Source of the DNA: Billgrantia desiderata
Lineage (GTDB): Bacteria; Pseudomonadota; Gammaproteobacteria; Pseudomonadales; Halomonadaceae
Length of the DNA stretch: 64,000 bases
Assembly (NCBI GenBank): GCA_011742915.1
Contig: JAAQTN010000007.1
Coordinates: 91,021-155,020, forward strand
Direction of reading: 5' to 3'
A program made the translations under genes and the position numbers. Shown in pieces: positions 4,716-33,167 of this stretch. Under the pieces are notes generated by a model, which was given only the letters and a program-made list of their open reading frames with translations, was not told the origin of the DNA and did not search any database. Every line of letters starts with the position of its first letter. Position 1 is the first letter of the stretch.

Positions 4716-4726
4716 GACCAAAGTCG
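4716..4726 (+). promoter_or_regulatory. GAC-N4-GTC box upstream of the first TRAP operon
   Basis: GACCAAAGTCG lies 102 bp before the dctP start. The identical sequence occurs in reverse at 14328-14338 before the enoyl-CoA hydratase operon, and close variants occur before four more genes. The constant distance of 82-115 bp to the start codon suggests an activator site, perhaps for a NarL/LuxR-type response regulator; the identity of the regulator is a guess. Confidence 0.5.
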
Positions 4727-4786
4727 GGTATCTAGAGGGGTTGATGAGTGGACTATAATCGGCCATCAGATAGATGACTACAACCA

Positions 4787-4801
4787 TTGTTGATTCAACA
4801 A
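4787..4801. promoter_or_regulatory. Palindromic operator TTGTTGATTCAACAA
   Basis: A perfect 7-1-7 inverted repeat (TTGTTGA, T, TCAACAA), 27 bp before the dctP start codon. The same 15 bases occur at 7918-7932 in front of the CoA-transferase gene. The position close to the start fits a repressor site; the MarR protein at 625-1083 is the best candidate. Confidence 0.65.
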
Positions 4802-4828
4802 ACAAATATAATCCATCTGGAGACACCC

Positions 4829-5962
4829 ATGACGAATCACACGCTGCTCAAGACCGTTGCCATTGCCGTCACCGTCGGGAGTCTGGCGCTCGCCAGCCAT
4901 GCTCAGGCCCGTGAGTTGCGCATGGCGCCGGGGGTGCCGCCCGCCCATCCCGCCTACAACCCGATGTTCACCCAGTTTGCCGAGCGCCTGGAGGAGAAGA
5001 CCAACGGTGAGCTGAGGGGCAATCTGCTGGGCACCGAGGTGGCCAACATTGGCAACATGCGCAATGCCATCCGCAGCGGTCTGGTGGAGGCGGGGCTGTT
5101 CCTGCCGGCCTATTTCCCGGCCGACCTTCCCGAGATCAACCTGGTCGGCGACATGGCCTTCCTCGGCACCACGCCCCATGCCATGGCGGCGGCAGTGACG
5201 GAATATATCGTTACCTGTGCGGAATGTCAGGAAGAGCTCAAGGCGCTGGGTATCGTCTACACCAGCTCGCATGCCTCTGACCTCTATCGCATCCTGAGCA
5301 CCAAGCCGGTGCGCTCCCTTGCCGATCTGCGCGGCCTGCGCATGCGCGTCGGCGGCCCGCAGTACTCCCGCTGGGCCGAGTCGGTCGGCCTGACACCGGC
5401 GACCATGTCGGTGGGTGAAACCTATGAGTCGCTCTCCCAGGGCGTGATCGAGGGCACCATCGCCTCCATCGCCGACATCATTTCCTTCCGCCTCGACGAC
5501 GTACTCAATTACGTGACCGACGTCGAGCTGGGTACCTTCCACAGCACCATCTCCCACGCCGTCGGCCAGCAGGCCTGGGACAGCCTGACGGAAGAACAGC
5601 GTGAGGCGATGATCCACGCTTCCGTCGAGGCGAGCGCCGCCATCACCCAGCGCTGGGGTTACGAGATGGCCGAGGAGGCGCGCGAAATTGCCAAGGAGAG
5701 CGGCATCGAGATTCTCGAGCCCGAGCAGGATCTTCTCGATGCCATTCCGGCCTTCATTGAAGAGGACCTGGTCTACGCCGCGGAGCAGGCCGAAAGGCGT
5801 CACGGTGTGCAAGACGCCGAGGCCAAGATCGAGCGCTTCCAGGCGCTGGTCGACAAGTGGACCGAGATGGTCGAAGAGATCGGCGACGATCACGAGGCCA
5901 TTGCCGAGGCCATGAAGCGTGAAATCTTTAGTGACGTCGACTTCGCCACCTACGGCAGCTGA
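4829..5962 (+). CDS. TRAP transporter substrate-binding protein (DctP family), hydroxycinnamate block
   Basis: A 377-residue periplasmic receptor. The signal peptide is residues 1-27 (cleavage after HAQA), followed by ELRMAPGVPPAHPAYN, the first strand of the ligand-binding fold. DLRGLRMRVGGPQ near the middle carries the conserved arginine that binds the carboxylate of the ligand in DctP proteins. The ATG at 4829 has a GGAGA site; upstream in-frame starts overlap the operator. It is followed by dctQ and dctM, giving a full TRAP system driven by an ion gradient. The related TarPQM system of Rhodopseudomonas takes up p-coumarate, so hydroxycinnamates are the likely ligands here. That rests on location and shared operators, not on binding residues. 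Confidence 0.88.
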   Translation: MTNHTLLKTVAIAVTVGSLALASHAQARELRMAPGVPPAHPAYNPMFTQFAERLEEKTNGELRGNLLGTEVANIGNMRNAIRSGLVEAGLFLPAYFPADLPEINLVGDMAFLGTTPHAMAAAVTEYIVTCAECQEELKALGIVYTSSHASDLYRILSTKPVRSLADLRGLRMRVGGPQYSRWAESVGLTPATMSVGETYESLSQGVIEGTIASIADIISFRLDDVLNYVTDVELGTFHSTISHAVGQQAWDSLTEEQREAMIHASVEASAAITQRWGYEMAEEAREIAKESGIEILEPEQDLLDAIPAFIEEDLVYAAEQAERRHGVQDAEAKIERFQALVDKWTEMVEEIGDDHEAIAEAMKREIFSDVDFATYGS

Positions 5963-5979
5963 GCAGGTGGTGTACCCCA

Positions 5980-6008
5980 CGAATGGCCGGCCTTCGGGCC
6001 GGCATTCG
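5980..6008 (+). other. Stable RNA hairpin between dctP and dctQ
   Basis: CGAATGGCCGGCC pairs with GGCCGGCATTCG around a TTCG tetraloop with a single bulge. There is no T-run, so it looks less like a terminator than an mRNA-stabilising or partial-termination element that keeps receptor expression above permease expression. This is common between receptor and permease genes. Confidence 0.6.
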
Positions 6009-6040
6009 TGCAGTGTTTTCCTTGATGTAGGAGACGCCCC

Positions 6041-6559
6041 ATGGCTGTGTTATATCGCCTGACCAACCTCGCCGCTGTCGGCTTGGCGCTGCTGGGCACT
6101 TTGGGGATTCTGCTGATGGTGGTGCACATCACGCTCGATGTGGTGCTGCGCTCGACGCTGTCGATCTCCATTCCCGCCACGCTGGAACTAGTGACCCGCT
6201 ACTACCTGATCACCCTGGCATTGCTGCCGCTGGGCTGGGTCGAGTGGCGCCGCAACATGATCAGCGTCGAAGCGCTGGAAGGCCTGATGGGCCCCAGGCT
6301 GATCCGCATTTCCGACGTTCTGGTATCGCTGCTCTCGGCGGCCATCTACGCCACGCTGGCCGTGGCTACCTGGGGCAAGGCCATGGAGCAGTACCAGATC
6401 GGCGCCTACGTAATGTCACTCAACGTGCCGATGCCCGTCTGGCCGACCTATTTCGTACTGCCCGTGGCCTTTGCGCTGGCTGCATTGGTCTGCCTGGTCA
6501 GGCTGCCGCTGCTGGCGACGGGAACGACGTACGATTCTCCCGCGCAAGAGGAAAGGTAA
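6041..6559 (+). CDS. TRAP transporter small permease (DctQ family)
   Basis: A 172-residue inner-membrane protein with four hydrophobic segments (about residues 10-35, 48-65, 92-112 and 132-155), the standard DctQ layout. ELVTRYYLITLALLPLGWVEWRR between helices 2 and 3 matches the family. AGGAGA lies before the ATG. It joins the large permease gene, which begins 4 bp downstream, to form the membrane part of the hydroxycinnamate-block TRAP system. Confidence 0.88.
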   Translation: MAVLYRLTNLAAVGLALLGTLGILLMVVHITLDVVLRSTLSISIPATLELVTRYYLITLALLPLGWVEWRRNMISVEALEGLMGPRLIRISDVLVSLLSAAIYATLAVATWGKAMEQYQIGAYVMSLNVPMPVWPTYFVLPVAFALAALVCLVRLPLLATGTTYDSPAQEER

Positions 6560-6563
6560 TTTC

Positions 6564-7862
6564 ATGTCCGTTGCGACCGGTTTCTATGGCTTGATCATTC
6601 TCCTTGTCCTGCTGGCACTTCGCGTACCGGTTGCGCTTGCTCTGGTGTCGGTCTCATTGGGCGGCATGACCATGATGTTCGGCTGGAACACCGCCATCGG
6701 CATGCTCTCCTCGACGCCCTATGAGTTCATCGCCAAGTGGACGCTCAGCGCGGTACCCATGTTCCTGCTGATGGGCTTCGTCTGCTACCACGCCGGGCTG
6801 ACCAACGGCCTGTTCAATGCGGCCAAGGTGGTGTTCCGCTGGCTGCCGGGCGGCGTGGCCATCTCCAGCATCTTTGCCAGCTCCGGCTTTGCCGCGGTGA
6901 GCGGTTCCAGCGTCGCCTGCTCGGCGGCCATGGGGCGCATCGCAATCCCCGAGATGGTGAAGGGCGGCTACAAGCCCAGCTTCGCCTGCGGCACCATTGC
7001 CGCGGGTGGCACCATCGGAGCGCTGATTCCCCCCAGCATCCTGATGATCGTCTACGGCGTGTTCGCCCAGGTCTCGATCACCCAGGTGTTCCTGGGCGGC
7101 ATCACCATCGGCCTGCTGACCGCGGTGAGCTACTGCATCGTGATCCTGGTGGTGAGCTGGTTGCGCCCCGACATCGTGCCCCGGGAGGCCGTTGGCGCCC
7201 GCGAGGTGTCTCCGCGTCAGGCGCTGCTCGATATCTGGCCGGTGCTGGTGCTCGGGGTGCTGGTGTTCGGCGGCCTCTTCTCCGGCTTCTTCACCGCCAC
7301 CGAGGCCGGTGCCGTCGGCGCTGCCGGGGCGATTCTTATCGGCCTGGTGCTGCGGCGGCTGAATGGCAGGGCCATGAAGGCGGCGCTGCTCGAGACGCTC
7401 TCCACCACCTCGGCGCTGCTGATCATCGGCGTCGGTGCCAGCATGTTCACCATGTTCCTGAGCCTGAGCGGCGTGGCCGGCTACATCACCGGTGCCGTCA
7501 GCGGCTGGGACCCCACCTATCTGGAACTGATGCTGGTGGTGGTGTTGATCTATCTCTTCCTCGGGCTGTTCATGGAGCCGTTCGGCGCCATGCTGGTGAC
7601 CCTGCCCGTGCTGCTGCCGATCTTCGAGCTGTATGACGTCAGCCTGATCTGGTTCGGCGTGCTGCTGGTCAAGCTGCTGGAGATCGGCATGATCACGCCG
7701 CCGGTGGGCATGAACATCTTCGTGATCAAGGGCGTGGCCGGGCAGTACGCCTCGCTGATGGACATCTTCCGCGGCGTTTCGACCTTCCTGGTGGCCGACA
7801 TCCTGGTGGTGGCCCTGGTGATCTTCTATCCCCAGATCGTGCTGGTGTTGACCAGCGGCTGA
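6564..7862 (+). CDS. TRAP transporter large permease (DctM family)
   Basis: A 432-residue polytopic protein with about 12 hydrophobic segments; it forms the ion-coupled transport channel. Family motifs are clear: SAVPMFLLMGF near residue 60, the SGSSVACSAAMGR loop near 115-127, GTIGALIPPSILMIVYG near 150, and the C-terminal ITPPVGMNIFVIKG loop near 377-390. The ATG at 6564 follows GAGGAAAGG, and the DctQ stop lies 4 bp upstream, so translation is probably coupled. It works with the DctP and DctQ proteins upstream. Confidence 0.92.
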   Translation: MSVATGFYGLIILLVLLALRVPVALALVSVSLGGMTMMFGWNTAIGMLSSTPYEFIAKWTLSAVPMFLLMGFVCYHAGLTNGLFNAAKVVFRWLPGGVAISSIFASSGFAAVSGSSVACSAAMGRIAIPEMVKGGYKPSFACGTIAAGGTIGALIPPSILMIVYGVFAQVSITQVFLGGITIGLLTAVSYCIVILVVSWLRPDIVPREAVGAREVSPRQALLDIWPVLVLGVLVFGGLFSGFFTATEAGAVGAAGAILIGLVLRRLNGRAMKAALLETLSTTSALLIIGVGASMFTMFLSLSGVAGYITGAVSGWDPTYLELMLVVVLIYLFLGLFMEPFGAMLVTLPVLLPIFELYDVSLIWFGVLLVKLLEIGMITPPVGMNIFVIKGVAGQYASLMDIFRGVSTFLVADILVVALVIFYPQIVLVLTSG

Positions 7863-7868
7863 CGGGAG

Positions 7869-7890
7869 CGCCCCGCTAGCCGGGGCGTTC
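7869..7890 (+). terminator. Hairpin terminator after the first TRAP operon
   Basis: CGCCCCG (7869-7875) pairs with CGGGGCG (7881-7887) over a 5-base loop, followed by TTCC. The T-run is weak. Confidence 0.5.
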
Positions 7891-7917
7891 CAGTGGGAGA
7901 TCAACGAGTCAGTATGT

Positions 7918-7932
7918 TTGTTGATTCAACAA
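7918..7932. promoter_or_regulatory. Second copy of palindromic operator TTGTTGATTCAACAA
   Basis: Identical over all 15 bases to the site at 4787-4801, and 46 bp before the first GTG of the CoA-transferase gene. Two perfect copies 3.1 kb apart, both in front of transcription units, point to one common repressor for both. Confidence 0.65.
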
Positions 7933-7968
7933 TATATGGCGCCATGCTATTGGTGTTTCCGCAAGAGG

Positions 7969-8013
7969 GCCGACAAGAGTGAAGCCGACAAGAGTGAAGC
8001 CGACAAGTGTGAA
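7969..8013 (+). repeat. Triple 15-bp direct repeat carrying three in-frame GTG codons
   Basis: The unit GCCGACAAGAGTGAA occurs at 7969-7983 and 7984-7998, and as GCCGACAAGTGTGAA at 7999-8013. Each unit contains a GTG (7979, 7994, 8009) in the frame of the CoA-transferase, so the repeat multiplies the start codon. Gain or loss of a unit would keep the frame. Confidence 0.75.
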
Positions 8014-9568
8014 CAAGATCATCGACAGTGCTGCCGCGGCGAACCTGATCCAGGACGGCGATACGGTCATCTGGACCACCGCCGGCCTGTGCGGCTTCGC
8101 CGAAGCCGTGGCCACGGCCCTGGAGCAGCGCTTCCTCGAGACCGGGGCGCCCCGCGACCTCACCGTGGCGCACAGCTGCGGCTGCGGCGACGGCAAGAGC
8201 CGCGGCATGAACCACCTGGGCCACGCCGGCCTGGTCAGGCGCTTGATCAGCGGCCACACCGGCCAGGCGCCGCGCATGGGCGAGCTGATTCGCGAGAACC
8301 GCGTCGAGGGCTACCTGCTGCCCCAGGGCGTGCTGGCGCACCTGTGGCGCCATATCGCCGGCAAGAAGCCCGGCGTGCTCAGCAAGGTGGGGCTCGGCAC
8401 CTTCGTCGACCCGCGCCTGGAGGGCGGCAAGGCCAATAGCGCCGCCGAGGAGGATCTGGTCAAGCTGGTCGAGCTGGAAGGCGAGGAGTGGCTGCTCTAT
8501 CGCACCTTCCCGGTGGATGTGGCAGTGATTCGCGCCACCACCGCCGACGAGCGCGGCAACCTGAGCATGGAGCGCGAGGCGCTGTTCCTCGAGCAGCTCT
8601 CCATGGCCCAGGCGGCCAGGAACAGCGGTGGCATCGTCATCGCCCAGGTGGAGTACCTGGCCACCCAGGGCAGCCTGCACCCCAAGCAGGTCAAGGTGCC
8701 GGGCGACCTGGTCGACTACGTGGTGGTGGCCGAGCCCGAACACCATATGCAGACCATCACCACCACCTACAACCCGGCCCTGGCCGGTGATCTCAAGGTG
8801 CCGCTGGGCGGCATCAAGCCGCTGCCGCTGGACCCGCGCAAGGTGATCGCCCGGCGCGCCGCCATGGAGTTGGTGCCGGGCGGGGTGGTCAACCTCGGCA
8901 TCGGCATGCCGGAAGGGGTCTCCAGCGTGGCGGCGGAAGAGGGTGTCAGCGATCTGATGACGCTGACCACCGAACTCGGCACCTACGGCGGCGTGCCGGC
9001 CAGCGGCGGCGATTTCGCCACCGCCTACAACGCCGAGGCGATCATCGATCACGGCTACCAGTTCGACTTCTACGACGGCGGCGGCCTGGCCGTGTGCTTC
9101 CTGGGGCTGGCCCAGACCGACCACGAGGGCAACCTCAACGTCAGCAAGTTCGGCGACAAGGTGGTGGGGCCGGGCGGCTTCATCAACATCAGCCAGAACG
9201 CTCGCAAGGTGGTGTTCTGCGGCACCTTCACCAACGGCGGCAAGGTGGCGGTCGAGGGCGGCAGCCTGCGGATTCTCGAGGAGGGGCCGCGGCGCAAGTT
9301 CGTCCAGCGCGTCGATCAGATCACCTTCAGCGGTCGCTACGCCCACGAGACCGGCAAGCCGGTGCTGTTCGTCACCGAGCGCTGCGTGTTCGAGCTGCTC
9401 GACGGCGAGATCACCCTGACCGAAATCGCCCCCGGGCTGGACGTCGAGCGCGACATCCTGGCGGCCATGGACTTCGTGCCGCGCATTGCCAGCGAGCTGC
9501 GCGAGATGCCGGCGGAGCTCTTCCAGCCCCAGTGGGGCGGCCTGCGCGCGCACCTGACCCGCGACTGA
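7979..9568 (+). CDS. Fused two-domain acyl-CoA:carboxylate CoA-transferase (family I)
   Basis: A 529-residue protein joining the alpha and beta halves of a class I CoA-transferase, as in propionate CoA-transferase/YdiF types. The N-terminal half has the glycine-rich SCGCGDGKSRG segment. The C-terminal half has NLGIGMPEGV (about 305-314) and TELGTYGGVP, whose Glu332 is the probable residue that forms the glutamyl-CoA intermediate. The first GTG (7979) has AGAGGG nine bases upstream; GTG 8009 gives a protein starting NKIIDSAAAANL, so the start is uncertain. It is followed by the thiolase gene. A role in moving CoA between acetate (or another acid) and the aryl acids of this pathway is inferred. 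Confidence 0.85.
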   Translation: MKPTRVKPTSVNKIIDSAAAANLIQDGDTVIWTTAGLCGFAEAVATALEQRFLETGAPRDLTVAHSCGCGDGKSRGMNHLGHAGLVRRLISGHTGQAPRMGELIRENRVEGYLLPQGVLAHLWRHIAGKKPGVLSKVGLGTFVDPRLEGGKANSAAEEDLVKLVELEGEEWLLYRTFPVDVAVIRATTADERGNLSMEREALFLEQLSMAQAARNSGGIVIAQVEYLATQGSLHPKQVKVPGDLVDYVVVAEPEHHMQTITTTYNPALAGDLKVPLGGIKPLPLDPRKVIARRAAMELVPGGVVNLGIGMPEGVSSVAAEEGVSDLMTLTTELGTYGGVPASGGDFATAYNAEAIIDHGYQFDFYDGGGLAVCFLGLAQTDHEGNLNVSKFGDKVVGPGGFINISQNARKVVFCGTFTNGGKVAVEGGSLRILEEGPRRKFVQRVDQITFSGRYAHETGKPVLFVTERCVFELLDGEITLTEIAPGLDVERDILAAMDFVPRIASELREMPAELFQPQWGGLRAHLTRD

Positions 9569-9588
9569 ACAGCATTTGGAGATCGGAC

Positions 9589-10779
9589 ATGTTCAAGAAC
9601 GCCTACATCCCCTACGGCGGCTACTACACCACCCCCTTCTGCAAGTGGATGGGCAGCCTGGCCAACGTCAACTCCATCGAGTTGGGTGCGGCCACCAGCA
9701 AGCGCTGGTTCGCCGCCCGCGAGATCGATCCCACGCTCATCGACTATCTCTACCTGGGGGTGTCGGTGGGGCAGAAGTCGATCTTCTACGGCGCCCCCTG
9801 GGCCGCGGCCATGATGGGCGCCGGCCAGGCCCCGGGGCAGAACATCACCCAGGCCTGCGCCACCGCCACCACGGCGGTGTTCAATGCCGCCCTGGCGGTG
9901 GATTCCGGCAGCTTCGACACCACCTACTGCCTGCTGGCCGACCGGCCCTCCAACGGCCCCCACACCATTTGGCCCAACCCCAACGGGCCGGGCGGCGAGG
10001 TGATCGCCGAGAACTGGAACATGGACAACATCGCCGCCGACCCGGCCACCGGCAAGGACATGCTGACCACTGCCGAGAACGTGGCGCGGGAGCACGGTTT
10101 CAGCCGCGAGCAGGCCGATGAGCTGACCCTGCGGCGCTATGAGCAGTACGCCGAGGCCCTGGCCAACGAGCGCGCCTTCCAGAAGCGCTACATGTTCCCG
10201 GTGGAGGTGGCGGTCTCGCGCAAGGAGACCAAGCTCGTCGAGGCCGACGAGGGCGTGACTGCGACCTCCGCCGAGGGACTCGCCAAGCTGCGCTGCGTGC
10301 AGCCGGACGGTATCCATACCTACGGCGCCCAGACCCACCCGGCCGATGCCAATGCCGGCATTCTCGTCACCACCCGCGAGCGGGCCGTCGAGCTCAGCCG
10401 TGACCCGCAGATGGTGGTGCAGGTGGTGGCCTACGGCCATGCCCGCACCAAGCCGGCGCACATGCCGATGGCGCCGGCCGAGTCGGTCAAGCGCGCGCTT
10501 GACCGCGCCGATCTCCGGCTCGACCAGATCAAGACGATCAAGAACCACACGCCCTTCATCGCCAACGACCTGCACCTTTCGAAGGCGCTGGGGCTCGACG
10601 CCCACAGCTTCAACAATTACGGCACCTCGCTGGTCTACGGCCACCCCCAGGCGCCGACCCTGGCGCGCCTGCTGATCGAAGCCATCGAGGAGACCGCACT
10701 CAAGGGCGGCGGCTACGCCCTGGTGACCGGCTGCGCTGCCGGCGACTCCGCCGCGGCGCTGATCGTCAAGGTGGGGTAA
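9589..10779 (+). CDS. Thiolase-family acyl-CoA C-acyltransferase
   Basis: A 396-residue thiolase-fold enzyme. The nucleophilic cysteine is Cys90 in ITQACATATT, the catalytic His is His352 in YGHPQAPT, and the second cysteine is Cys382 in TGCAAGDS, so all three key positions are present. It differs from housekeeping thiolases and resembles those encoded near aromatic CoA pathways. GGAGA precedes the ATG, 20 bp after the CoA-transferase stop, so the two are cotranscribed. The proposed role is cleavage of 3-oxo-3-arylpropionyl-CoA to aroyl-CoA and acetyl-CoA, the last step of a beta-oxidation route for hydroxycinnamates. Confidence 0.88.
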   Translation: MFKNAYIPYGGYYTTPFCKWMGSLANVNSIELGAATSKRWFAAREIDPTLIDYLYLGVSVGQKSIFYGAPWAAAMMGAGQAPGQNITQACATATTAVFNAALAVDSGSFDTTYCLLADRPSNGPHTIWPNPNGPGGEVIAENWNMDNIAADPATGKDMLTTAENVAREHGFSREQADELTLRRYEQYAEALANERAFQKRYMFPVEVAVSRKETKLVEADEGVTATSAEGLAKLRCVQPDGIHTYGAQTHPADANAGILVTTRERAVELSRDPQMVVQVVAYGHARTKPAHMPMAPAESVKRALDRADLRLDQIKTIKNHTPFIANDLHLSKALGLDAHSFNNYGTSLVYGHPQAPTLARLLIEAIEETALKGGGYALVTGCAAGDSAAALIVKVG

Positions 10780-10824
10780 GGCTGGTGGGGAGAGGGCCTA
10801 GGGCCCTCTCTCAAAGCCCTGCTC

Positions 10825-12633: not shown

Positions 12634-12645
12634 GGTGGCCTTTCC

Positions 12646-13431: not shown

Positions 13432-13441
13432 GATGCTTTCC

Positions 13442-14212
13442 TCAGGTACGTGGGCCCTGGCCCTTGTGCTTGAAGAAGTTGCCGATGCGTTCGGCGACCT
13501 CGGGGCTGGTCTGGGTCAGGGCGGCGGTGAGCGATTCCACGAACAGGCCGTCGTCGCTGGCCATGTTGTCGATGCGCGAGATGGCGGAGACCATGGCCCA
13601 GTTGGCCATGGGCGCGTTCTCGGCGATGCGCTCGGCCAGCTGGCGGGCCTTGTCGAGGCTCTCGCCGTTACCGACCACGTAGTGGGAGAGGCCGAGGCGC
13701 TGCCCTTCGTCGGCGTCCATGACGCGGCCGGTGAGCATCATTTCGCACATGCGACCGGGCCCGATGATGTTGGAGACCCGCACCGAGGCGCCGCCGCCGA
13801 CGAAGATGCCGTGACGCCCTTCCGGCAGCTGATAGACGGTGCTGGCTTCGGCGACCCGCACATGGGTGGCGGTGGCCAGCTCCAGGCCGCCGCCGATGAC
13901 GGCGCCCTGCATGGCGGTCACCACCGGCAGGCCGCCGTTCTGCAGGCGATCGAAGATGCGGTGCCAGCCGCGAGAGTGCTGCACCACGCCGAAGGGGTCG
14001 CGATGCTGGTGTTCGGCGAGGTCCAGACCGGCGCAGAAGTGCTTGCCCTCGGCGGCCAGGATGATGACCCGCGCCTCTTGTGGCGTGGCCACCAGGGCCT
14101 CTTCCAGGGCGCTGAGCAGACGGTCGCTGACGGCATTACGCTTCTCCGGGCGCGCCAGGGTGATGGTGTAGATGGTGTCGTCCAGAGTCGTCTTGACGAG
14201 CGTTTCGGTCAT
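13442..14212 (-). CDS. Enoyl-CoA hydratase (crotonase family) of the hydroxycinnamate block
   Basis: A 256-residue crotonase with both hydratase glutamates: Glu111 in IGGGLELAT and Glu131 in YQLPEGRHG. The oxyanion-hole segment HFCAGLDL lies near residues 58-65. It lacks the sequence features of hydroxycinnamoyl-CoA hydratase-lyase (Ech/HCHL), so it probably only hydrates rather than cleaving to an aldehyde. The ATG at 14212 is preferred over an upstream in-frame one because the family's N-terminus starts there. It is first in the operon; a GAC-N4-GTC box lies 115 bp upstream. Confidence 0.88.
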
Positions 14213-14264
14213 GTGGGCCTCGGCAATAATCGTCAAGCTGAGCGCTTGTTGTTCGAAGATACTG

Positions 14265-14280: not shown

Positions 14281-14327
14281 TAGGTAGGTTACAGCAGTTG
14301 CCGAGCCGGGTCATGCCTGCCTTTCTT

Positions 14328-14338
14328 CGACTTTGGTC
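14328..14338 (-). promoter_or_regulatory. GAC-N4-GTC box upstream of the hydratase operon
   Basis: The minus strand reads GACCAAAGTCG, identical to 4716-4726. It lies 115 bp before the hydratase start codon. Confidence 0.5.
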
Positions 14339-22356: not shown

Positions 22357-22607
22357 GATCACGGCACGTTCCCTTGTCTCTGTCACGCCGCCTTTGAAAA
22401 GTCCAAATTAATATTCCTTTTGTCCTTTTTTATGGGCAAGTGGGTGCTTTTCCTTTGTCATAAGCAACGGAAAATCCAAGTGGCATAGACTAATGTCGAT
22501 TATCGAGAGGGGCAGTGGTGGGGTAGCTTAGTCGATAAGCCGAACGTGTGTTCGTTTTGCGAACAATGGCGCTGAGAATCGACTACAACGACCCCGGAGG
22601 CACCCTC
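22357..22607 (+). promoter_or_regulatory. Promoter region of the second TRAP operon with several conserved boxes
   Basis: 251 bp without a gene. GAAAAGTCCAA (22396-22406) also occurs at 26508-26518 before pobA, and GAAAATCCAAG (22470-22480) is a near repeat. GACTAATGTCG (22488-22498) is the GAC-N4-GTC box, 109 bp before the start. TGTTCGTTTTGCGAACA (22549-22565) is a perfect 6-5-6 inverted repeat 42 bp before the start. CGAAC-GTGT-GTTCG (22541-22554) overlaps it. CCGGAGG precedes the ATG. Confidence 0.6.
22549..22565. promoter_or_regulatory. IclR-type operator TGTTCG-N5-CGAACA
   Basis: A perfect 6-bp inverted repeat with a 5-base spacer TTTTG. Variants occur at 27932-27948, 33099-33115 and 3482-3498. 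The TTCG/CGAA core is like operators of IclR-family regulators (PcaR/PcaU/PobR types). No IclR gene is present in the window. Confidence 0.6.
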
Positions 22608-23642
22608 ATGAACCGTGTCCTGTCCCGCTGCCTGCTGGCGGCTTCCATCGCTGGGCTCACTGCCGCGTCCGCCGCGCAGGCCTCCACCACCCTGCGCATG
22701 TCGCACTTCTGGCCGGACGGTTCCGGCATCAACCAGGAGATCTTCCAGGCCTGGGCCGATGCCGTGCAGGAAGCCTCCGGCGGTGAGATCACGATCGAGA
22801 ACTATCCGTCCCAGACCCTGACCCGCGCCGACCAGGCCTATCAGGGCGCGGTCAACGGCATCTCCGACATCGCCATCACCGCCCAGGGCTACACCGCGGG
22901 TCGCTTCCCGCTGTCGCAGATCGTCGAGCTGCCGGGGGTTTCCGATACCGCCAGCCAGGGCGCCTGCATCCTGCAGACCCTCTACGACGACGGCCACATT
23001 GCCAGCGAGTACGACGACACCAAGGTGCTGTTCATGTTCACCACGGGGCCGGGCTACCTGCACACCGTAGATAACGACATTCAGTCGCCGGCCGACCTTT
23101 CCGGCCTGCGTATTCGCCGCCCCACTGCCGTGGCCGGCGAGATGCTCGAGCAGCTCGGCGCCCAGCCGGTCGGCATGCCGGCGCCGGACATCTACACCTC
23201 GCTGCAGCGCGGCGTGATCGACGGCCTGAGCTTCCCGTGGGAGGGCATGAAGGTCTTCCGTCTCAACGAGCTGGCCAACTACCACACCCAGGTGCCGTTC
23301 TACTCGCTGATCTTCGTCGCCACCATGAACCAGCGCAGCTTCGACCGCCTGAGCGAAGAGCAGCAGGCGGCCATCGAGGCCAACATGGGTATGCAGTGGA
23401 GCGAAGTGGCCGGCGGCGTGTTCGACGGCCTGGATGAAGCAGGCAAGCAGGAAGCCGAGGAGGCCGGGCACACCATCCGCGTGATCGACAACCCGCTCGA
23501 GCACGACGACTGGGCCGGTCCGCTCAAGGCGGGGATCGAGAACTACCTGAGCGAGCTCGAAGGCCGCGGCCTGGACAATGCTCGTGAAGTCTATGAAGCC
23601 GCCATGGCGGCGCGCGAGGCCTGCTCGGTCGAGCAGAGCTGA
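22608..23642 (+). CDS. TRAP transporter substrate-binding protein (DctP family), second system
   Basis: A 344-residue periplasmic receptor: signal peptide about 1-25 (cleavage after AAQA), then STTLRMSHFWPDGSG. ADLSGLRIRRPT carries the ligand-binding arginine region of DctP proteins. It is closely related to the orphan receptor at 14423-15433, roughly half the residues identical by eye. It is followed by dctQ and dctM. The ligand is probably an aromatic carboxylate such as 4-hydroxybenzoate or vanillate, given the flanking van and pob genes; this is inference. Confidence 0.9.
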   Translation: MNRVLSRCLLAASIAGLTAASAAQASTTLRMSHFWPDGSGINQEIFQAWADAVQEASGGEITIENYPSQTLTRADQAYQGAVNGISDIAITAQGYTAGRFPLSQIVELPGVSDTASQGACILQTLYDDGHIASEYDDTKVLFMFTTGPGYLHTVDNDIQSPADLSGLRIRRPTAVAGEMLEQLGAQPVGMPAPDIYTSLQRGVIDGLSFPWEGMKVFRLNELANYHTQVPFYSLIFVATMNQRSFDRLSEEQQAAIEANMGMQWSEVAGGVFDGLDEAGKQEAEEAGHTIRVIDNPLEHDDWAGPLKAGIENYLSELEGRGLDNAREVYEAAMAAREACSVEQS

Positions 23643-23656
23643 GCCGGGAGGCCGTG

Positions 23657-24181
23657 ATGCAACCCTTGCTTTTCGCAAGCCGCCAGCTGGCGCGCCTGTG
23701 CCTGCTGGTGGCAGGTCTGGCGCTGCTGGCGCTGATGAGCGTGACCATCGTCGACGTGCTGCTGCGCATGGCGTTCCGCCTCTCCGGCGGGGCGCTCAAC
23801 TGGAGCGTGATCGGCAGCGTCGAGCTGGTGCGCTATCTGCTGATGTTCTCGCTGCTGGCGGCCATGGCCGCCAGCGTGGAGCGCAGCCAGGTGGTGGTCG
23901 AGGCCTTCTCCCACGGCCTTTCGCCGGTGCTCAAGGAGCGCCTGGGCGGTCTGTTCCTGTTCGGCTTCGTGGTGCTGGGGACGGTCATGGCCATCGGCCT
24001 GTGGCAGGAGGCCGGTATCGCCTCCCAGCGCGGTCAGGTGACCCAGGATCTGCGAATCCCCATGGGGCCGATCTACCAGTTCGGTGCCGTGCTGTGCGCG
24101 CTGCTGGCGCTGCGCAGCCTGCTGCATGCCGTGCTGGGCGTCTTCTTCGCCACCGAGGGGGGAGGTGTCCACCATGAGTAG
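23657..24181 (+). CDS. TRAP transporter small permease (DctQ family), second system
   Basis: A 174-residue protein with four membrane segments (about 12-35, 52-75, 93-113, 135-158). The ATG at 23657 is preferred to a GTG three bases earlier because GGGAGG then sits at a workable distance. It starts 14 bp after the receptor gene and overlaps dctM by 8 bp. Confidence 0.88.
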   Translation: MQPLLFASRQLARLCLLVAGLALLALMSVTIVDVLLRMAFRLSGGALNWSVIGSVELVRYLLMFSLLAAMAASVERSQVVVEAFSHGLSPVLKERLGGLFLFGFVVLGTVMAIGLWQEAGIASQRGQVTQDLRIPMGPIYQFGAVLCALLALRSLLHAVLGVFFATEGGGVHHE

Positions 24182-25460: not shown

Positions 25461-25528
25461 TTTCTGTCCGAATACTGGCTGCGCTCGCCGACTTTTCAGG
25501 CAGAGCCTAGCCTCGCATCTTTTCTCTT

Positions 25529-25560
25529 GCCCCGGTTCAGCCTGTCTGACCGGGGCCTTT
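25529..25560 (+). terminator. Rho-independent terminator of the second TRAP operon
   Basis: GCCCCGGTTCAG pairs with CTGACCGGGGC (one bulge) over a short loop, followed by CTTTTC. It also separates this operon from the convergent AraC gene. Confidence 0.8.
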
Positions 25561-26469: not shown

Positions 26470-27793
<1,324 letters not shown>

Positions 27794-27814
27794 CGTTATT
27801 CCTTGCTCCTCCTT

Positions 27815-27846
27815 GCCCGGGCTGTGGTGGTTGGCCCGGGCTTTTT
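27815..27846 (+). terminator. Rho-independent terminator after pobA
   Basis: GCCCGGGC (27815-27822) and GCCCGGGC (27834-27841) pair over an 11-base loop, followed by TTTTT. Confidence 0.85.
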
Positions 27847-27870
27847 CATGCCTGCCGAGACACTCGCTAA

Positions 27871-27881
27871 GACTAAGGTCG
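27871..27881 (+). promoter_or_regulatory. GAC-N4-GTC box upstream of the TctCBA operon
   Basis: GACTAAGGTCG followed by GGTTT, 95 bp before the tctC start. The flanking GGGTT is shared with the site at 33157-33167. Confidence 0.5.
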
Positions 27882-27931
27882 GGTTTGGAGCCCGGGCGCA
27901 ACCCAGTACTCTCGATTCGATAACGAATAAG

Positions 27932-27948
27932 TGTGCGCTTTGCGAACA
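27932..27948. promoter_or_regulatory. IclR-type operator TGTGCG-N5-CGAACA
   Basis: TGTGCGCTTTGCGAACA differs from the perfect copy at 22549 by one base in the left arm and one in the spacer. It is 28 bp before the tctC start. Confidence 0.55.
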
Positions 27949-27976
27949 ATTTCAAACGACGATGCGAGGTGGCGTG

Positions 27977-28975
27977 ATGGCTGGTGTGCAAAAGAGCTTG
28001 TTGAAAAAGGTGTGCCTTGCGGCATGCGGTGGTGGCCTGGCGGTGGCAATGTCCGTTTCTACGGCCCATGCCAACGAGTGGCCGACCGGCGATGTGCGTC
28101 TGGTCGTGCCCTATGCCCCGGGTGGTACCACCGACGTACTGTCGCGTCGTGTGGCCGACCTGCTGCAGGATGAGCTCGACGCCAACGTGGTGGTGGAAAA
28201 CCGGCCCGGGGCGGGCTCCACCGTGGCCACCGGTCGCCTGGCGCGCGGTGGGCGCGACGCCGCTCATACCATTCTGATGGCCTCGCCCGGACATACCATC
28301 GGGGCGGCGATCTATCCCGACCTCGACTACGATCCGGTCGAGGATTTCGTCTTCCTGCAGAACCTGATCGACATCCCCAACGTGATGGTGGTGCCGGCCA
28401 GCAGCCCCTATGACAGCGTCGAAGAGTTCGTCGAGGCGGCACGCGAGCAGAACATGACCTTCAGCCACAGCGGCGTGGGCAGCTCCATTCACATGTCGGG
28501 TGAGCTGTTCAAGACGCTGACCGAGACCAACCTGACCGCCGTGCCGTTTGCCGGCAGCGGTGCCGCGCTTCCGGCTCTGCTGGGAGGCGATGTCGACGTC
28601 TCCTTCGAGAACATGCCGACCGTGCTGTCCCATATCCGCTCAGGCGACCTCAAGGCGCTGGCGGTGACCTCCGCCGAGCGCTCCGAGCATCTGCCCGACG
28701 TGCCCACCCTGGTGGAAGTCGGCGACTACAACCTCGATCAGTTCGTGACCACCGCCTGGTTCGGCCTGATCGCTCACGAGTCCTTCTCCGAGGAGGCTCA
28801 GGAGGCCATGCGCACCGCGCTCGATGCCGTGATGCAGCGCGAGGAGTTCGTCAGCTTCGCGGACCAGTTGGGTGCCGAACCGGGCCAGGTGGCCGGCGAG
28901 GAGTTCAAGCAGTTCATCGCCCAGGAGGTCGAGCGTTGGCAGGAAGTGGCCGAGCAGGCCGGCATCAGCCAGTAA
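27977..28975 (+). CDS. Tripartite tricarboxylate transporter substrate-binding protein (TctC/Bug family)
   Basis: A 332-residue periplasmic protein: signal peptide 1-32 (cleavage after TAHA), then NEWPTGDVRLVVPYAPGGTTDVLSR, the Bug-family ligand loop. VVVENRPGAGSTVA and PVFAGSGAALPALLGG-like segments follow. The ATG at 27977 has GAGGTG upstream; an ATG at 27962 has none. It is followed by tctB and tctA. Bug receptors bind varied carboxylates; the ligand here is unknown, but the neighbouring CoA-transferase suggests an acid that is then activated to its CoA ester. Confidence 0.9.
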   Translation: MAGVQKSLLKKVCLAACGGGLAVAMSVSTAHANEWPTGDVRLVVPYAPGGTTDVLSRRVADLLQDELDANVVVENRPGAGSTVATGRLARGGRDAAHTILMASPGHTIGAAIYPDLDYDPVEDFVFLQNLIDIPNVMVVPASSPYDSVEEFVEAAREQNMTFSHSGVGSSIHMSGELFKTLTETNLTAVPFAGSGAALPALLGGDVDVSFENMPTVLSHIRSGDLKALAVTSAERSEHLPDVPTLVEVGDYNLDQFVTTAWFGLIAHESFSEEAQEAMRTALDAVMQREEFVSFADQLGAEPGQVAGEEFKQFIAQEVERWQEVAEQAGISQ

Positions 28976-29002
28976 GCGAGTCGACCGCTTTCACCGTTCG
29001 TT

Positions 29003-29026
29003 GAGGCGAGGCTCCGTCCTCGCCTC
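29003..29026 (+). other. RNA hairpin between tctC and tctB
   Basis: GAGGCGAGG and CCTCGCCTC form a perfect 9-bp stem with a 6-base loop, without a T-run. It parallels the hairpin after dctP at 5980-6008. Confidence 0.6.
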
Positions 29027-29047
29027 ACCTGTCCTCTGGAGGGTGTC

Positions 29048-29548
29048 ATGTCGTCCTCGTCGTCAAAGCGTGTCATGGCGGTTCGCGACCCCGGAGACGT
29101 TCTCTCGGGGTGTGTGCTGCTGGTCGCTTCCGCCATCCTGCTGTTCTACCTGATACCCAACTACATCAGCGAACCGCCCATCATGCAGAGCCCGCTGATG
29201 TCGCCGCGCTGGCTGCCGCGCATCGTGGGCGGGCTGATGCTGCTCTTCTCCTGCCTGCTGATCGTGCAGGGGCTGCTGGTGGACAACACCGACAAGGAGG
29301 ATGGGCGCCGTATCGAGAAGGGGCCCAGGCTGCGCTTCGCCATGATGGTGGCGGCGCTGGTCGTCTACGTGACGCTGTTCGAGGCGCTGGGGGCGGTGAT
29401 CAGCGGCATCCTGGCCACCTTGATCCTGTTTGCGGCTCACCCGGTCAGGACCTGGTGGGTCTACAGCCTGGCTTTCGTGTTCCCTGCCGCCGTCGCCTTC
29501 GTCTTCGTGAAGGTCATGAACGTGCCGCTGCCGCTGATGCCGTTCTGA
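29048..29548 (+). CDS. Tripartite tricarboxylate transporter small membrane subunit (TctB family)
   Basis: A 166-residue protein with four membrane segments (about 20-38, 58-75, 98-118, 135-160). The layout and size are typical of TctB, and it lies between tctC and tctA. CTGGAGGG precedes the ATG. Confidence 0.85.
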   Translation: MSSSSSKRVMAVRDPGDVLSGCVLLVASAILLFYLIPNYISEPPIMQSPLMSPRWLPRIVGGLMLLFSCLLIVQGLLVDNTDKEDGRRIEKGPRLRFAMMVAALVVYVTLFEALGAVISGILATLILFAAHPVRTWWVYSLAFVFPAAVAFVFVKVMNVPLPLMPF

Positions 29549-29578
29549 CGGCAGGCGCTACTGCCCCTGGGTGAATGC

Positions 29579-31084
29579 ATGGATATGTTTTCGGAAGTGC
29601 TCCATCTCTTTCTCAGCCTGGACAACTTCCTGGCCATTGCGCTGGGGGTCGTCATCGGCGTCGTGGTCGGCTCGATTCCAGGGCTGACCGCCACCATGGC
29701 AGTCGCGCTGGCGCTGCCGTTCACCTTCACCATGGAGCCGGTGGCGGCCATCCTGCTGCTGGTGGGCATCTACAAGGGCGGCATGTACGGCGGCTCCATC
29801 ACGGCCATCCTGATCCGCACCCCGGGCTCGCCGGCATCCGCCTGCACGCTGCTCGACGGCTACCCCATGGCCCAGCAGGGCCACGCCAAGAAGGCGCTCA
29901 AGACGGCGCTCTACTCCTCGGTGATCGCCGACTTCATCTCCAACATCGCGCTGATCTTCTTCGCCGCCTATCTGGCCAAGATCGCGCTCAACTTCGGTGC
30001 GCCGGAGTTCTTCTGGCTGATCTGCTTCTCGCTGACCATCATCATCTCGCTGGCCAGCGGCTCGATGATCAAGGGCCTGCTCGCCGCCTTGATGGGCATC
30101 CTGCTCTCGCTGGTGGGACTGGACGAGGTCTACGGCTCCCAGCGGTTGACCTTCGGCAACTACAACCTGATGGATTCGATCTCGTTCATCCCGCTGCTGA
30201 TCGGGCTGTTCGCCATTCCCGAGATCATCGAGTTCTATCGCAAGAAGGCGCTGCCGCACCTCAAGGCCAAGGCCAGCGGGGTGGGCATGACCCTGGCGGA
30301 GCTCAAGCGCTGCCTGAAGAGCATCATTCGCGGCAGCCTGATCGGCGTGATCATCGGCGCGATTCCCGGTACCGGGGCCACCGCCGCGGCCTTCATCTCC
30401 TACAGCGACGCCCGCCGCCGCTCGCCCAACCGCGACAACTTCGGCAAGGGCGAGGTGGAAGGCGTGGCCGCCGCCGAGGCGGGCAACAACGGCGTGGCCG
30501 GGGCGACCATGATTCCGCTGCTGTCGCTGGGCATTCCCGGCGACGTGATCACCGCCATCATCCTCGGCGCCTTCATGGTCCACGGCCTGACTCCGGGCCC
30601 GATCATGTTCCAGGAGAACCTGACGCTGATCTACGCGCTGTTCGTCGGCATCATGTTCAGTTCGCTGGTGCTGCTGGTGGTGGGCAACGGGGCGATCAAG
30701 TACTTCTCGCTGATCGCCGACATTCCCAAGTCGATCCTCTTCCCCATCGTGCTGATGTTCTGCGTCTACGGCGCCTACGCGGTGAACAACGACACCTTCG
30801 ACGTGTGGCTGATGCTGGGCTTCGGCGTGCTCGGCTACATCTTCAACCGGGCGGCGATTCCGGCGGCACCGTTCTTGATCGGCTTCATTCTCGGGCCGAT
30901 GTTCGAGGACAACCTGCGCCGCTCGCTGCTGATCGGGCACAACGATCTCGCGATCTTCGTGCGCGGTCCGATCACCTGGTTCTTCATCGCCCTGACGCTG
31001 GGCTCGATCCTGCTGGCGATCTATCGCTATGTCGCGGCGCGCCGTCAGTCCGTCAGCGCCAGCGCGACGCAGGAGAGCCCGTGA
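29579..31084 (+). CDS. Tripartite tricarboxylate transporter large membrane subunit (TctA family)
   Basis: A 501-residue polytopic protein. GVVVGSIPGLTATMAVALALPFTF near residues 26-49 and YKGGMYGGSITAILIRTPGSPAS near 65-87 are the first TctA signature. A second half-repeat, GVIIGAIPGTGATAAAFISY (near 257-276) and IPGDVITAIILGAF, reflects the internal duplication. It forms the transport channel with TctB; the following CoA-transferase start is 46 bp downstream. Confidence 0.93.
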   Translation: MDMFSEVLHLFLSLDNFLAIALGVVIGVVVGSIPGLTATMAVALALPFTFTMEPVAAILLLVGIYKGGMYGGSITAILIRTPGSPASACTLLDGYPMAQQGHAKKALKTALYSSVIADFISNIALIFFAAYLAKIALNFGAPEFFWLICFSLTIIISLASGSMIKGLLAALMGILLSLVGLDEVYGSQRLTFGNYNLMDSISFIPLLIGLFAIPEIIEFYRKKALPHLKAKASGVGMTLAELKRCLKSIIRGSLIGVIIGAIPGTGATAAAFISYSDARRRSPNRDNFGKGEVEGVAAAEAGNNGVAGATMIPLLSLGIPGDVITAIILGAFMVHGLTPGPIMFQENLTLIYALFVGIMFSSLVLLVVGNGAIKYFSLIADIPKSILFPIVLMFCVYGAYAVNNDTFDVWLMLGFGVLGYIFNRAAIPAAPFLIGFILGPMFEDNLRRSLLIGHNDLAIFVRGPITWFFIALTLGSILLAIYRYVAARRQSVSASATQESP

Positions 31085-31130
31085 GCAATATCGAACCCAC
31101 GGGCGCAACGCAAGGATCGGGAGAGGTGAT

Positions 31131-32354
31131 ATGGCAGGACCGCTGACAGGCCTGCGCGTGCTCGACCTTAGCCGGGTGATGGCCGGTCCCTGGTGCACCC
31201 AGATACTCGCCGACATGGGCGCCGAGGTGATCAAGATCGAGCGCCCGGTGAGCGGCGACGACACGCGCCACTGGGGGCCGCCCTGGCTCGAGGATCGCGA
31301 CGGCAACGAGACCCGCGAATCCGCCTACTATCTCTCGGCCAACCGCGGCAAGCACTCGGTGACCGTGGACATGGGCCAGCCCGAAGGGCAGGCGCTGATC
31401 CGTGAGCTGGCCGCCCAGAGCGACATCCTGGTGGAGAACTTCAAGCGCGGTGGCCTGGCGCGCAAGGGGCTCGACTACGCCACCCTGGAAGCGATCAATC
31501 CCGGGTTGATCTACTGCTCCATCACCGGTTTCGGCCAGACCGGGCCGATGGCCGCCCTGGCCGGCTACGACTACCTGATCCAGGCCCAGGGCGGCCTGAT
31601 GAGCATCACCGGCGCCGCCGACGGCGAGCCCGGCGCGGGACCGCAGCGAGTCGGCATGGCCGTAGCGGACCTCACCACCGGCATGAACGCGACCATCGCC
31701 ATTCTCGGCGCGCTGCACCACCGTCACCTGACCGGCGAAGGGCAGTACATCGACATGGCCCTGCTCGACGTGCAGGTGAGCTGGCTGGCCAACCAGGCAC
31801 AGAACTACTTCTGCAGCGGTACGCCACCCACCCGCACCGGCGAGTACCACCCCAACCTGGTGCCCTATCAGCCGTTTCCCACCGCCGACGGCGAGAAGGT
31901 GATCATCGCCATCGGCAACGACGGCCAGTTCCAGCGCTTCTGCCAGGCGGTGGGGCGGCCCGAGCTGGCCGAGGACCCGCGCTTTGCGACCAATCCCGAG
32001 CGGGTGAGACATCGACTCGAGCTGGTACCGATCATGGTCGAGATCACCCGCAGCCGTACCGCCGCCGAGTGGATCGCGCTGCTGGGCGAGATCGCCGTGC
32101 CCTGCGGGCCGATCCAGAACATCGCCCAGGTCTTCGACGACCCCCAGGTCAAGGCGCGGGAAATGAAGATCGAGCTGGAGTCGCGCCACGGGCCGGTGCC
32201 CGGCGTGGCCAACCCGATCAAGTACTCGCGTACGCAGCTGGAGTATCGCAAGGCGCCGCCGGCACTGGGCGAGGATACCGAGGCCGTGCTGGCGCGGCTG
32301 CTCGGCAAGGCGCCGGCGGAGATCGCCGGGTTGCGCCAGCGCGGTGTGATCTAG
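31131..32354 (+). CDS. CaiB/BaiF-family (class III) CoA-transferase
   Basis: A 407-residue enzyme. LDLSRVMAGPWCTQILADMGAEVIKIE (11-37) is the class III signature, and Asp147 in AGYDYLIQAQGG is the expected residue that forms the acyl-anhydride intermediate. GGGAGAGG precedes the ATG. It is the last gene of tctCBA-CoA-transferase, so it probably charges the imported acid with CoA from a donor thioester. The substrate cannot be told. Confidence 0.9.
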   Translation: MAGPLTGLRVLDLSRVMAGPWCTQILADMGAEVIKIERPVSGDDTRHWGPPWLEDRDGNETRESAYYLSANRGKHSVTVDMGQPEGQALIRELAAQSDILVENFKRGGLARKGLDYATLEAINPGLIYCSITGFGQTGPMAALAGYDYLIQAQGGLMSITGAADGEPGAGPQRVGMAVADLTTGMNATIAILGALHHRHLTGEGQYIDMALLDVQVSWLANQAQNYFCSGTPPTRTGEYHPNLVPYQPFPTADGEKVIIAIGNDGQFQRFCQAVGRPELAEDPRFATNPERVRHRLELVPIMVEITRSRTAAEWIALLGEIAVPCGPIQNIAQVFDDPQVKAREMKIELESRHGPVPGVANPIKYSRTQLEYRKAPPALGEDTEAVLARLLGKAPAEIAGLRQRGVI

Positions 32355-32360
32355 CGCGGA

Positions 32361-33074
32361 TCAGCCGACGCTGACGCCGCCGCAGACGAACAGGGTCTGG
32401 CCAGTGACGAAACCGCTGCGCTCGTCGCAGAAGAAGCTCACCGCCTGGGCCACGTCTTCGGGCTGGCCCATGCGCCGCGCCGGGATGTTGTCGATGATGC
32501 GTCGTGCGCGCTCCGAATCCGGCGGGTTGTTCTCCCAGAAGGCGCTGGTGGCGATGGGACCGGGGGCGACGCAGTTGACCGTGATGCCGTCGCCGGCCAG
32601 CTCCAGCGCCCAGGTGCGGGCCATGGATTGCAGCGCGCCCTTGGTCGCGCTGTAGAGGCTGCGGGCCTCCTTGCCCAGCACCACGCGACTGGCATTGATC
32701 ACGATACGGCCGTGGCGCCGCTCGCGCATGCCCGGCAGCAGCGCCTGAGTGCAGACCAGCGCCGAGCGCACGTTGAGGTGCATCAGGCGATCGAAGTCCT
32801 CCACTCGCGTGTCGTCGAGCAGTGCCGGCGCGACGATCCCCACGTTATTGACCAGACAGCCTACGCTGTGAGCCGCGACGATTTCGGCGAGTACCTCGCG
32901 GGTCGCTTCCACCTCGGCGAGATCGACCAGCCGGGCATCGGCCCTGAGCGATTCCGCCTCGGGCTCGACGATGTCCAGCACGATGGTGCGATAGCCGTCC
33001 TGTTGCAGGCGCAGGGCGATGGCCTGGCCGATGTTGCGGGCGCCGCCGGTGACGATTGCGCAGGATTCGCTCAT
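32361..33074 (-). CDS. Short-chain dehydrogenase/reductase of unknown substrate
   Basis: A 237-residue SDR with TGGARNIGQ at 9-17 and the catalytic set Ser129, Tyr141, Lys145. The cofactor-binding Asp34 (VLDIV) suggests NAD preference. It is convergent with the CoA-transferase gene and has both shared promoter boxes upstream, so it is likely co-regulated with tctCBA. A step after CoA activation, such as oxidation of a hydroxy group, is a reasonable guess. Confidence 0.85.
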   Translation of the reverse strand: MSESCAIVTGGARNIGQAIALRLQQDGYRTIVLDIVEPEAESLRADARLVDLAEVEATREVLAEIVAAHSVGCLVNNVGIVAPALLDDTRVEDFDRLMHLNVRSALVCTQALLPGMRERRHGRIVINASRVVLGKEARSLYSATKGALQSMARTWALELAGDGITVNCVAPGPIATSAFWENNPPDSERARRIIDNIPARRMGQPEDVAQAVSFFCDERSGFVTGQTLFVCGGVSVG

Positions 33075-33098
33075 GTGCGGCTCCGTTTTGGCTGTCGG

Positions 33099-33115
33099 TG
33101 TGCGTTATGCGTACG
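33099..33115. promoter_or_regulatory. IclR-type operator TGTGCG-N5-CGTACG
   Basis: TGTGCGTTATGCGTACG lies 24 bp before the SDR start. It shares the TTATG spacer with the porin site at 3482-3498. Confidence 0.5.
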
Positions 33116-33156
33116 TTAGTTCGCTATGTTTTCGCTCCGACAGCCGTATCACAACC

Positions 33157-33167
33157 CGACCTTCGTC
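33157..33167 (-). promoter_or_regulatory. GAC-N4-GTC box upstream of the SDR gene
   Basis: The minus strand reads GACGAAGGTCG then GGTT, 82 bp before the SDR start. With flanks it matches the tctC box at all but one position. Confidence 0.45.

Follow-up and report, generated by a model that had tools for sequence, protein, structure and literature searches.

In a stretch of 64,000 nt of Billgrantia desiderata DNA (GCA_011742915.1, contig JAAQTN010000007.1, positions 91,021 to 155,020; hereafter "the window"), a short box recurs upstream of six catabolic genes, which raises the question of whether these boxes are the sites of one regulator and, if so, of which one. An initial annotation, made from the sequence alone, had read the box as GAC-N4-GTC(G) and had proposed that it is an upstream activator site of a single regulator, which links the respective gene blocks and is encoded outside of the window. 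The analyses described below indicate that the boxes probably are operators, i.e. ACTU motifs, of CrbR (synonymous with ErdR), a response regulator of the LuxR/NarL type, which would activate the adjacent promoters.

Six oriented boxes upstream of catabolic genes

A pattern search of the window recovered all six copies, with the positions, strands and distances to the start codons that had been reported. The box of the hydroxycinnamate block (GACCAAAGTCG, 4716-4726, plus strand) is located 102 bp upstream of dctP1 (4829-5962, plus strand), which encodes a TRAP solute-binding protein (Pfam DctP). The identical sequence is found on the minus strand at 14328-14338, 115 bp upstream of a gene of the crotonase/enoyl-CoA hydratase family (13442-14212, minus strand; NF006013, 385 bits, above the cut-off). 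A second gene for a TRAP solute-binding protein, dctP2 (22608-23642, plus strand; Pfam DctP), is preceded at a distance of 109 bp by GACTAATGTCG (22488-22498, plus strand). Between pobA, the gene for 4-hydroxybenzoate 3-monooxygenase (26609-27793, plus strand; TIGR02360, 715 bits, above the cut-off), and a divergent AraC-type gene lies GACTAAAGTCG (26484-26494, plus strand), 114 bp from the pobA start codon. The remaining two boxes are GACTAAGGTCG (27871-27881, plus strand), 95 bp upstream of tctC (27977-28975, plus strand; receptor of a tripartite tricarboxylate transporter, Pfam TctC), and GACGAAGGTCG (33157-33167, minus strand), the weakest of the six, 82 bp upstream of a short-chain dehydrogenase (SDR) gene (32361-33074, minus strand; Pfam adh_short_C2). 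The distances of 115 and 95 bp were taken from the coordinates of the start codons, i.e. 14212 and 27977. All assignments draw on the matrices described below and, in addition, on the pattern search and orthologous promoters at dctP1, on family promoters at pobA, and on relatives at the other four genes. The imperfect seventh copy that had been noticed near marR is also present (GACTAAAGTTG, 1172-1182, minus strand, 88 bp upstream of marR), and its status is uncertain.

The significance of the boxes depends on the pattern that is used. The pattern GACNNNNGTCG has 12 matches in the window, while 14.15 are expected, i.e. it occurs at chance level, and GACN4GTCG was therefore dropped as the motif. 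The oriented form GACNAANGTCG has six matches compared to 0.35 expected, and none of 100 shuffled windows reached this number; this pattern was derived from the six matches themselves, so that it was chosen post hoc.

The boxes match the ACTU motif of the acetate regulator CrbR

The ACTU motif, as described in PMC5715377, is an imperfect inverted repeat that CrbR, a response regulator of the LuxR type that controls the use of acetate, requires for activation. At the acs gene of Pseudomonas fluorescens it occupies positions -52 to -36; TACGACTAAAGTCTAAA and TAATACTAAGGTCGTCT are among the matches given in this paper, part of which are predictions only. The boxes of the window have the same form and the same orientation as these published matches. 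The regulator class that the initial annotation had suggested, i.e. response regulators of the NarL/LuxR type that govern the use of carbon sources and acetate, is thus the class to which CrbR/ErdR belongs.

We built a matrix solely from the four P. fluorescens sites at acs, actP, pflu5625 and pflu0110, and ranked the boxes among the 127,968 positions of the window. The boxes at tctC, dctP2, the crotonase gene, dctP1, pobA and the SDR gene attained ranks 1, 4, 6, 9, 12 and 20, respectively, so that, by this test, the six boxes fit the published motif. After addition of 30 acs boxes of the family Halomonadaceae and the actP box of the B. desiderata genome, the ranks, in the same order, were 2, 10, 1, 3, 11 and 17. 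With five further sites from this genome, the boxes at dctP1, dctP2, the crotonase gene, tctC, pobA and the SDR gene ranked 1, 2, 3, 4, 5 and 18. The fullest matrix, which includes acetate and central-carbon promoters of the family, is partly circular, because six sites from the B. desiderata genome entered it via patterns modelled on the boxes. The marR copy ranked 15 with the fullest matrix, 40 when the family acs and actP sites were included, and 217 with the four P. fluorescens sites.

The initial annotation had stated that no box precedes the van, ali, gentisate and cat/ben blocks. This holds true for the strict pattern; with the matrix, a match of 16.1 bits (TACAAAAGTGC, 50673-50683, plus strand) is found upstream of a third TRAP receptor gene, which is encoded on the minus strand, so that the match has the opposite orientation.

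The same box is also present at the acetate genes of the B. desiderata genome, i.e. as TACCAAGGTCT 119 bp upstream of acs and as TACCAAAGTCT 260 bp upstream of the actP operon. In the family, the form [TG]ACCAA[TG]GTCT was found in 30 of 30 acs promoters examined, which were the 30 best loci from 117 genomes with acs. The distance between the box and the element TATGCT is 25 nt in 20 of these promoters, 26 nt in eight, and 27 nt in two.

Conservation of the boxes in orthologous promoters

The initial annotation had made its proposal dependent on conservation of the box in orthologous promoters of relatives, and such conservation was found at dctP1, dctP2, pobA and other promoters. Among the 121 family genomes, ten contain a dctP1 gene, and nine of the ten promoters, that of B. 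desiderata included, keep the box, as GACCAAAGTCG (two), TACCAAAGTCT (four), TACCAAAGTCG (two), or GACTAAAGTTG (one). Eight of nine promoters have a score of at least 10 (mean of shuffled sequences 0.5), and in all eight promoters of other genomes with a scored box its distance to TATAAT is 27 nt. At dctP1, the G..G form is interchangeable with the T..T form, i.e. the acs form, which is the strongest sign that the catabolic boxes and the acs boxes are one motif.

For dctP2, which is 99% identical to its counterpart in Billgrantia ethanolica, all 19 promoters of relatives score 10 or more, compared to a mean of 0.95 after shuffling. In 14 of them a -10-like element follows the box at 25 nt, in one at 26 nt, and in another one at 20 nt, while none was found in three. 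As a control, we scored the promoters of GntR-type genes from the same loci, and none of 12 reached 10 bits (shuffled mean 0.35). The set of dctP2 homologues also yielded relatives whose loci extend to the other genes of the window. The box is exact in five of eight relatives for the crotonase gene and in four of four for tctC, and has the form GACGAAGGTCG or GACCAAGGTCG in three of three for the SDR gene. Upstream of marR, GACTAAAGTT[GC] was found at four of six orthologues examined.

For pobA, 50 of 51 family promoters were covered (that of genome G109 was left out). In 44 of the 50, B. desiderata included, the box has at most one mismatch to KACYAWNGTCK, and 15 are exact, compared to Markov null means of 3.4 and 0.07, respectively. 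A score of at least 10 is reached by 38 of the 50 promoters (shuffled mean 2.05, maximum 4). Scores of 8 or higher are reached by 42 promoters; 33 of these have the element TGNCTTA 40 nt beyond the box, while it was not found in the other nine. Outside of the family, 26 of 29 places were evaluated; only one promoter is within one mismatch, and three score at least 10, none of which fits the consensus.

The crbR gene is encoded on another contig

A candidate for the regulator gene is found outside of the window, as the initial annotation had expected. The genome encodes nine proteins with a GerE domain. One of them is CrbR, which combines a receiver and a LuxR-type helix-turn-helix (Pfam Response_reg and GerE; contig C37, 4989-5651). 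Its best NCBIfam match is the "exception"-type model for ErdR (NF041830, 267.7 bits), followed by NarL (118.5 bits). The adjoining gene encodes a hybrid kinase of 1317 residues with PAS, HisKA, HATPase and receiver domains and 13 hydrophobic segments in the N-terminal part, and the gene for the SSF symporter ActP is located nearby, together with that for its small subunit. In the family, CrbR was found in all 121 genomes searched, which represent 24 of 24 genera. Judged from the coordinates, some relatives, e.g. G052, G020 and G010, have acs next to crbR; in B. desiderata, acs is located on a different contig.

Promoter architecture and a second operator

The initial annotation had described the distance between box and start codon as fixed. 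With values from 82 to 115 bp it is in fact loose, and the idea of such a constancy was given up; the conserved quantity is the spacing to the -10 element, which is tight within each orthologous promoter. The predicted -10 element of dctP1 (TATAAT, 4754-4759, plus strand) is located 27 nt beyond the box, while the -10-like elements of dctP2 (TAGCTT, 22524-22529, plus strand) and tctC (TACTCT, 27907-27912, plus strand) are predicted at 25 nt, in agreement with the range of 25-27 nt for the family acs promoters. The boxes of the crotonase gene and pobA are farther away from their predicted -10 elements, with distances of 36 nt for the former and 43 nt for the latter. The element predicted for the crotonase gene is TAACCT (14286-14291, minus strand), and relatives look similar by eye. 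At pobA, the family promoters share a conserved extended -10-like element (TGCCTTAAT, 26535-26543, plus strand), which is located 40 nt beyond the box.

Three of the promoters contain a second operator with the arrangement CGAAC-GTTCG-CGAAC. It is located 42 nt beyond the box at dctP2 (22541-22564, plus strand), where conservation in relatives is visible by eye, and pattern searches placed it 42 nt beyond the box at tctC (27924-27947, plus strand) and 33 nt beyond the box at the SDR gene (33100-33123, minus strand). With one mismatch allowed, the pattern of three half-sites, CGAAYNNNNGTNCGYNNNNCGNAC, has three matches in the window, compared to 0.17 expected; this pattern was devised after the promoters had been viewed. 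The second operator probably serves a substrate-specific regulator, and its form is reminiscent of boxes of the IclR type, e.g. that of PcaR. Since it stands beside the ACTU box, the dctP2, tctC and SDR promoters look like gates with two inputs. At pobA, an element resembling AAAAGTCCAA is found between the box and the -10 element in many relatives (26495-26530 in the window), and is perhaps the site of the divergent AraC-type regulator.

Evidence against the assignment and genome-wide distribution

Several findings weigh against the assignment of the boxes to CrbR. The pobA box is absent from six of the 50 family promoters, and the box of the crotonase gene is absent from two of eight promoters and degenerate in a third. 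A matrix built from acs and actP alone places the boxes lower, at ranks 1, 4, 19, 24, 28 and 111, and with the fullest matrix seven positions that are not boxes (e.g. 50673, 4312 and 61303) outrank the SDR box. The spacing between box and -10 element varies across promoters (25, 27, 36 and 43 nt), with no clear value for the SDR gene. The score of CrbR with the ErdR model is below the cut-off of 390, and Pfam SSF has no match in the N-terminal part of the hybrid kinase next to crbR. In the whole genome (4.89 Mb in 106 contigs), GACNAANGTCG has 54 matches, hardly more than its backward reading (47), and 31 of the 54 are located within genes. Of the 23 intergenic matches, several precede genes that are not obviously connected with the use of carbon sources, point away from the neighbouring gene, or lack any gene in the surrounding 400 bp. 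Finally, in P. aeruginosa the levels of most tested ErdR targets rose upon deletion of erdR, according to the available part of PMC9927353.

In view of the control counts, the genome-wide number of matches alone says little, and the case rests on position and conservation. The fraction of GACNAANGTCG matches outside of called genes is 23 of 54, compared to four of 15 for the control pattern with swapped half-sites, GTCNAANGACG. The share of sequence occupied by called genes is 90% in the window and 86% in the sampled stretches of the B. desiderata genome; the labels "coding" and "intergenic" are approximate, e.g. a second acs box (contig C71, position 8151) was labelled coding. The genome contains 106 places that match KACYAWNGTCK, and 40 stretches were sampled from 100 of them, mainly with GTCT or TAC forms. 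These stretches hold 50 sites, 24 of them intergenic and 26 coding, and three of the 50 were already among the 54 matches.

Elsewhere in the genome, intergenic boxes oriented towards the gene were found upstream of an ackA-family (acetate/propionate kinase) gene, acnB, glpK, and genes for DctP receptors, each of which exceeds the NCBIfam cut-off with at least one model. Such boxes also precede genes similar to NADP-malic enzyme (partial in the stretch) and to lactate-utilisation genes, both of which score below the NCBIfam cut-offs. For other downstream genes only the N-terminus could be read, which points to TctC and MCP types, and the TctC reading has no NCBIfam match. A gene for a TAXI receptor has a box in the opposite orientation. 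Genes similar to upp, MalT and patatin (by reading) also follow boxes and have no evident link to carbon. The carbon part of this regulon sketch agrees with the ErdR targets of P. aeruginosa, which include dctA, PA5530 (a C5-dicarboxylate transporter), icd and idh (PMC9927353, available part).

Proposed mechanism and alternative explanations

The claim that the box is the upstream activator site of one regulator linking the blocks is thus supported by the motif, its conservation and the presence of crbR; from these we infer binding by CrbR, direct regulation and its sign, as well as the signal. Once phosphorylated, CrbR would attach in dimeric form to the imperfect inverted repeat and would assist RNA polymerase at the adjacent promoter of the sigma-70 type. 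The box would abut the -35 region at dctP1, dctP2 and tctC, as at acs, and would be located farther upstream at the crotonase gene and pobA. Uptake via TRAP and Tct transporters as well as early catabolism of hydroxycinnamate- and hydroxybenzoate-type acids would thereby come under the acetate two-component system. Local regulators would add substrate specificity, i.e. probably the AraC-type protein at pobA and, at dctP2, tctC and the SDR gene, a separate protein that would act on the CGAAC/GTTCG operator.

An alternative that retains the regulator and the sites is that CrbR mainly represses, e.g. that it keeps aromatic uptake low during acetate use. In its favour, most tested targets rose in the P. 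aeruginosa erdR mutant; PA3235, whose operon also contains an actP-like gene, decreased (PMC9927353, available part). Against it, the ACTU box is required for activation at P. fluorescens acs (PMC5715377, available part). In addition, the boxes of dctP1, dctP2 and tctC have a spacing like that at acs and leave the -10 element uncovered, and we regard predominant repression as unlikely.

A far smaller probability is assigned to a paralogous response regulator as the binding protein, e.g. that encoded on contig C85, which is 43-44% identical to CrbR and, as a related NarL-type protein, has a similar helix-turn-helix. A second protein of this kind (44-46% identity) passes the search threshold of E <= 1e-50 in only five of 121 family genomes, compared to all 121 for CrbR, whereas the pobA box is present in 44 of 50 promoters; moreover, the same box occurs at acs, and the acs form replaces the G..G form at dctP1. 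That the boxes belong to an unrelated regulator with an ACTU-like site, or that chance accounts for some of them (SDR, marR), would fit the low scores of these two copies, the post hoc choice of the pattern and the chance-level frequency of GACN4GTCG, but is the least probable explanation in view of the conservation across genera with fixed spacing and the high ranks obtained from the published sites alone.

Comparison with known systems

The activating CrbR system proposed here shares several features with the CrbS-CrbR (MxtR-ErdR) regulon of Pseudomonas and Vibrio: an imperfect inverted repeat with a defined orientation, [GT]AC-Y-A-W-N-GTC-[GT], which is also found at acs and actP, the predicted position of the box next to the -35 region at some of the promoters, and the vicinity of crbR, the gene of a CrbS-like kinase and actP. 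It differs in that boxes are also found in aromatic-acid clusters, i.e. at pobA and at genes for TRAP and Tct receptors, the crotonase and the SDR. Targets of this kind are not named for CrbR or ErdR in the available parts of PMC5715377, PMC8402216 and PMC9927353. The P. aeruginosa ErdR regulon likewise includes carboxylate transporters and genes of the tricarboxylic acid cycle, comparable to the boxes at genes for DctP receptors, acnB and malic enzyme; unlike here, no aromatic-acid pathway is named in the available part of its description, and most tested targets rose in the mutant. The RpuS/RpuR system of Sinorhizobium fredii is comparable in that it has a kinase of the SLC5/STAC type and a DNA motif on which its regulator depends. 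Here, however, the repeat is direct, though likewise imperfect; pobA is among the changed genes, yet the motif is found only at the mctP operon (PMC9100948, available part).

The boxes suggest that, in Halomonadaceae, the switch for acetate use extends to plant-type aromatic acids. The literature searched, with its partial coverage, yielded no report of CrbR or ErdR in Halomonas and, among the papers listed, none of CrbR at aromatic genes; the one paper that mentions ErdR together with hydroxybenzoate is that on RpuS/RpuR (PMC9100948). The regulator and the motif are known. Their extension to aromatic catabolism is, within the limits of this literature, a new finding and, at pobA, is limited to the family. 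In a broader view, to which we would give even chances, CrbS/CrbR would be a general regulator of carbon acquisition in Halomonadaceae, with direct control of the uptake and first steps of lignin-type aromatics and of lactate, glycerol and carboxylate uptake; local regulators would co-gate the promoters, and the recruitment of pobA would date back to the family ancestor or to a time close to it. If the operator is wired into aromatic uptake and pobA throughout the family, one two-component system would tie the use of lignin monomers to the acetate status. This would have a bearing on the carbon hierarchy of these salt-tolerant bacteria and on their biotechnological use, and the boxes provide a short list of candidate promoters.

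Further sensor kinases in the genome

At 2372-6864 of the stretch 11500-20000 of contig C21, the genome encodes a kinase of 985 aa, the membrane part of which resembles that of CrbS (29%), together with an NtrC-type regulator (468 aa). An open reading frame of 58 aa is located upstream. Judged by reading, the neighbours are similar to dksA/gluQ on one side and to pcnB on the other. This set looks like cbrX-cbrA-cbrB, which is called unique to Pseudomonadaceae in the available part of a review (PMC8871633). A search for a CrcZ-like RNA next to the pair yielded only matches below the family gathering scores. The idea that CrbS/R substitutes for a missing CbrAB system was dropped, since this CbrAB-like pair is present. 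Another kinase (contig C14, 2895-5660 of the stretch 65500-73500) is 47% identical to CrbS over residues 8-657; a gene for a chemotaxis receptor is adjacent, and no response regulator is among the five genes called in this stretch. This second CrbS-like kinase might provide an additional input to CrbR.

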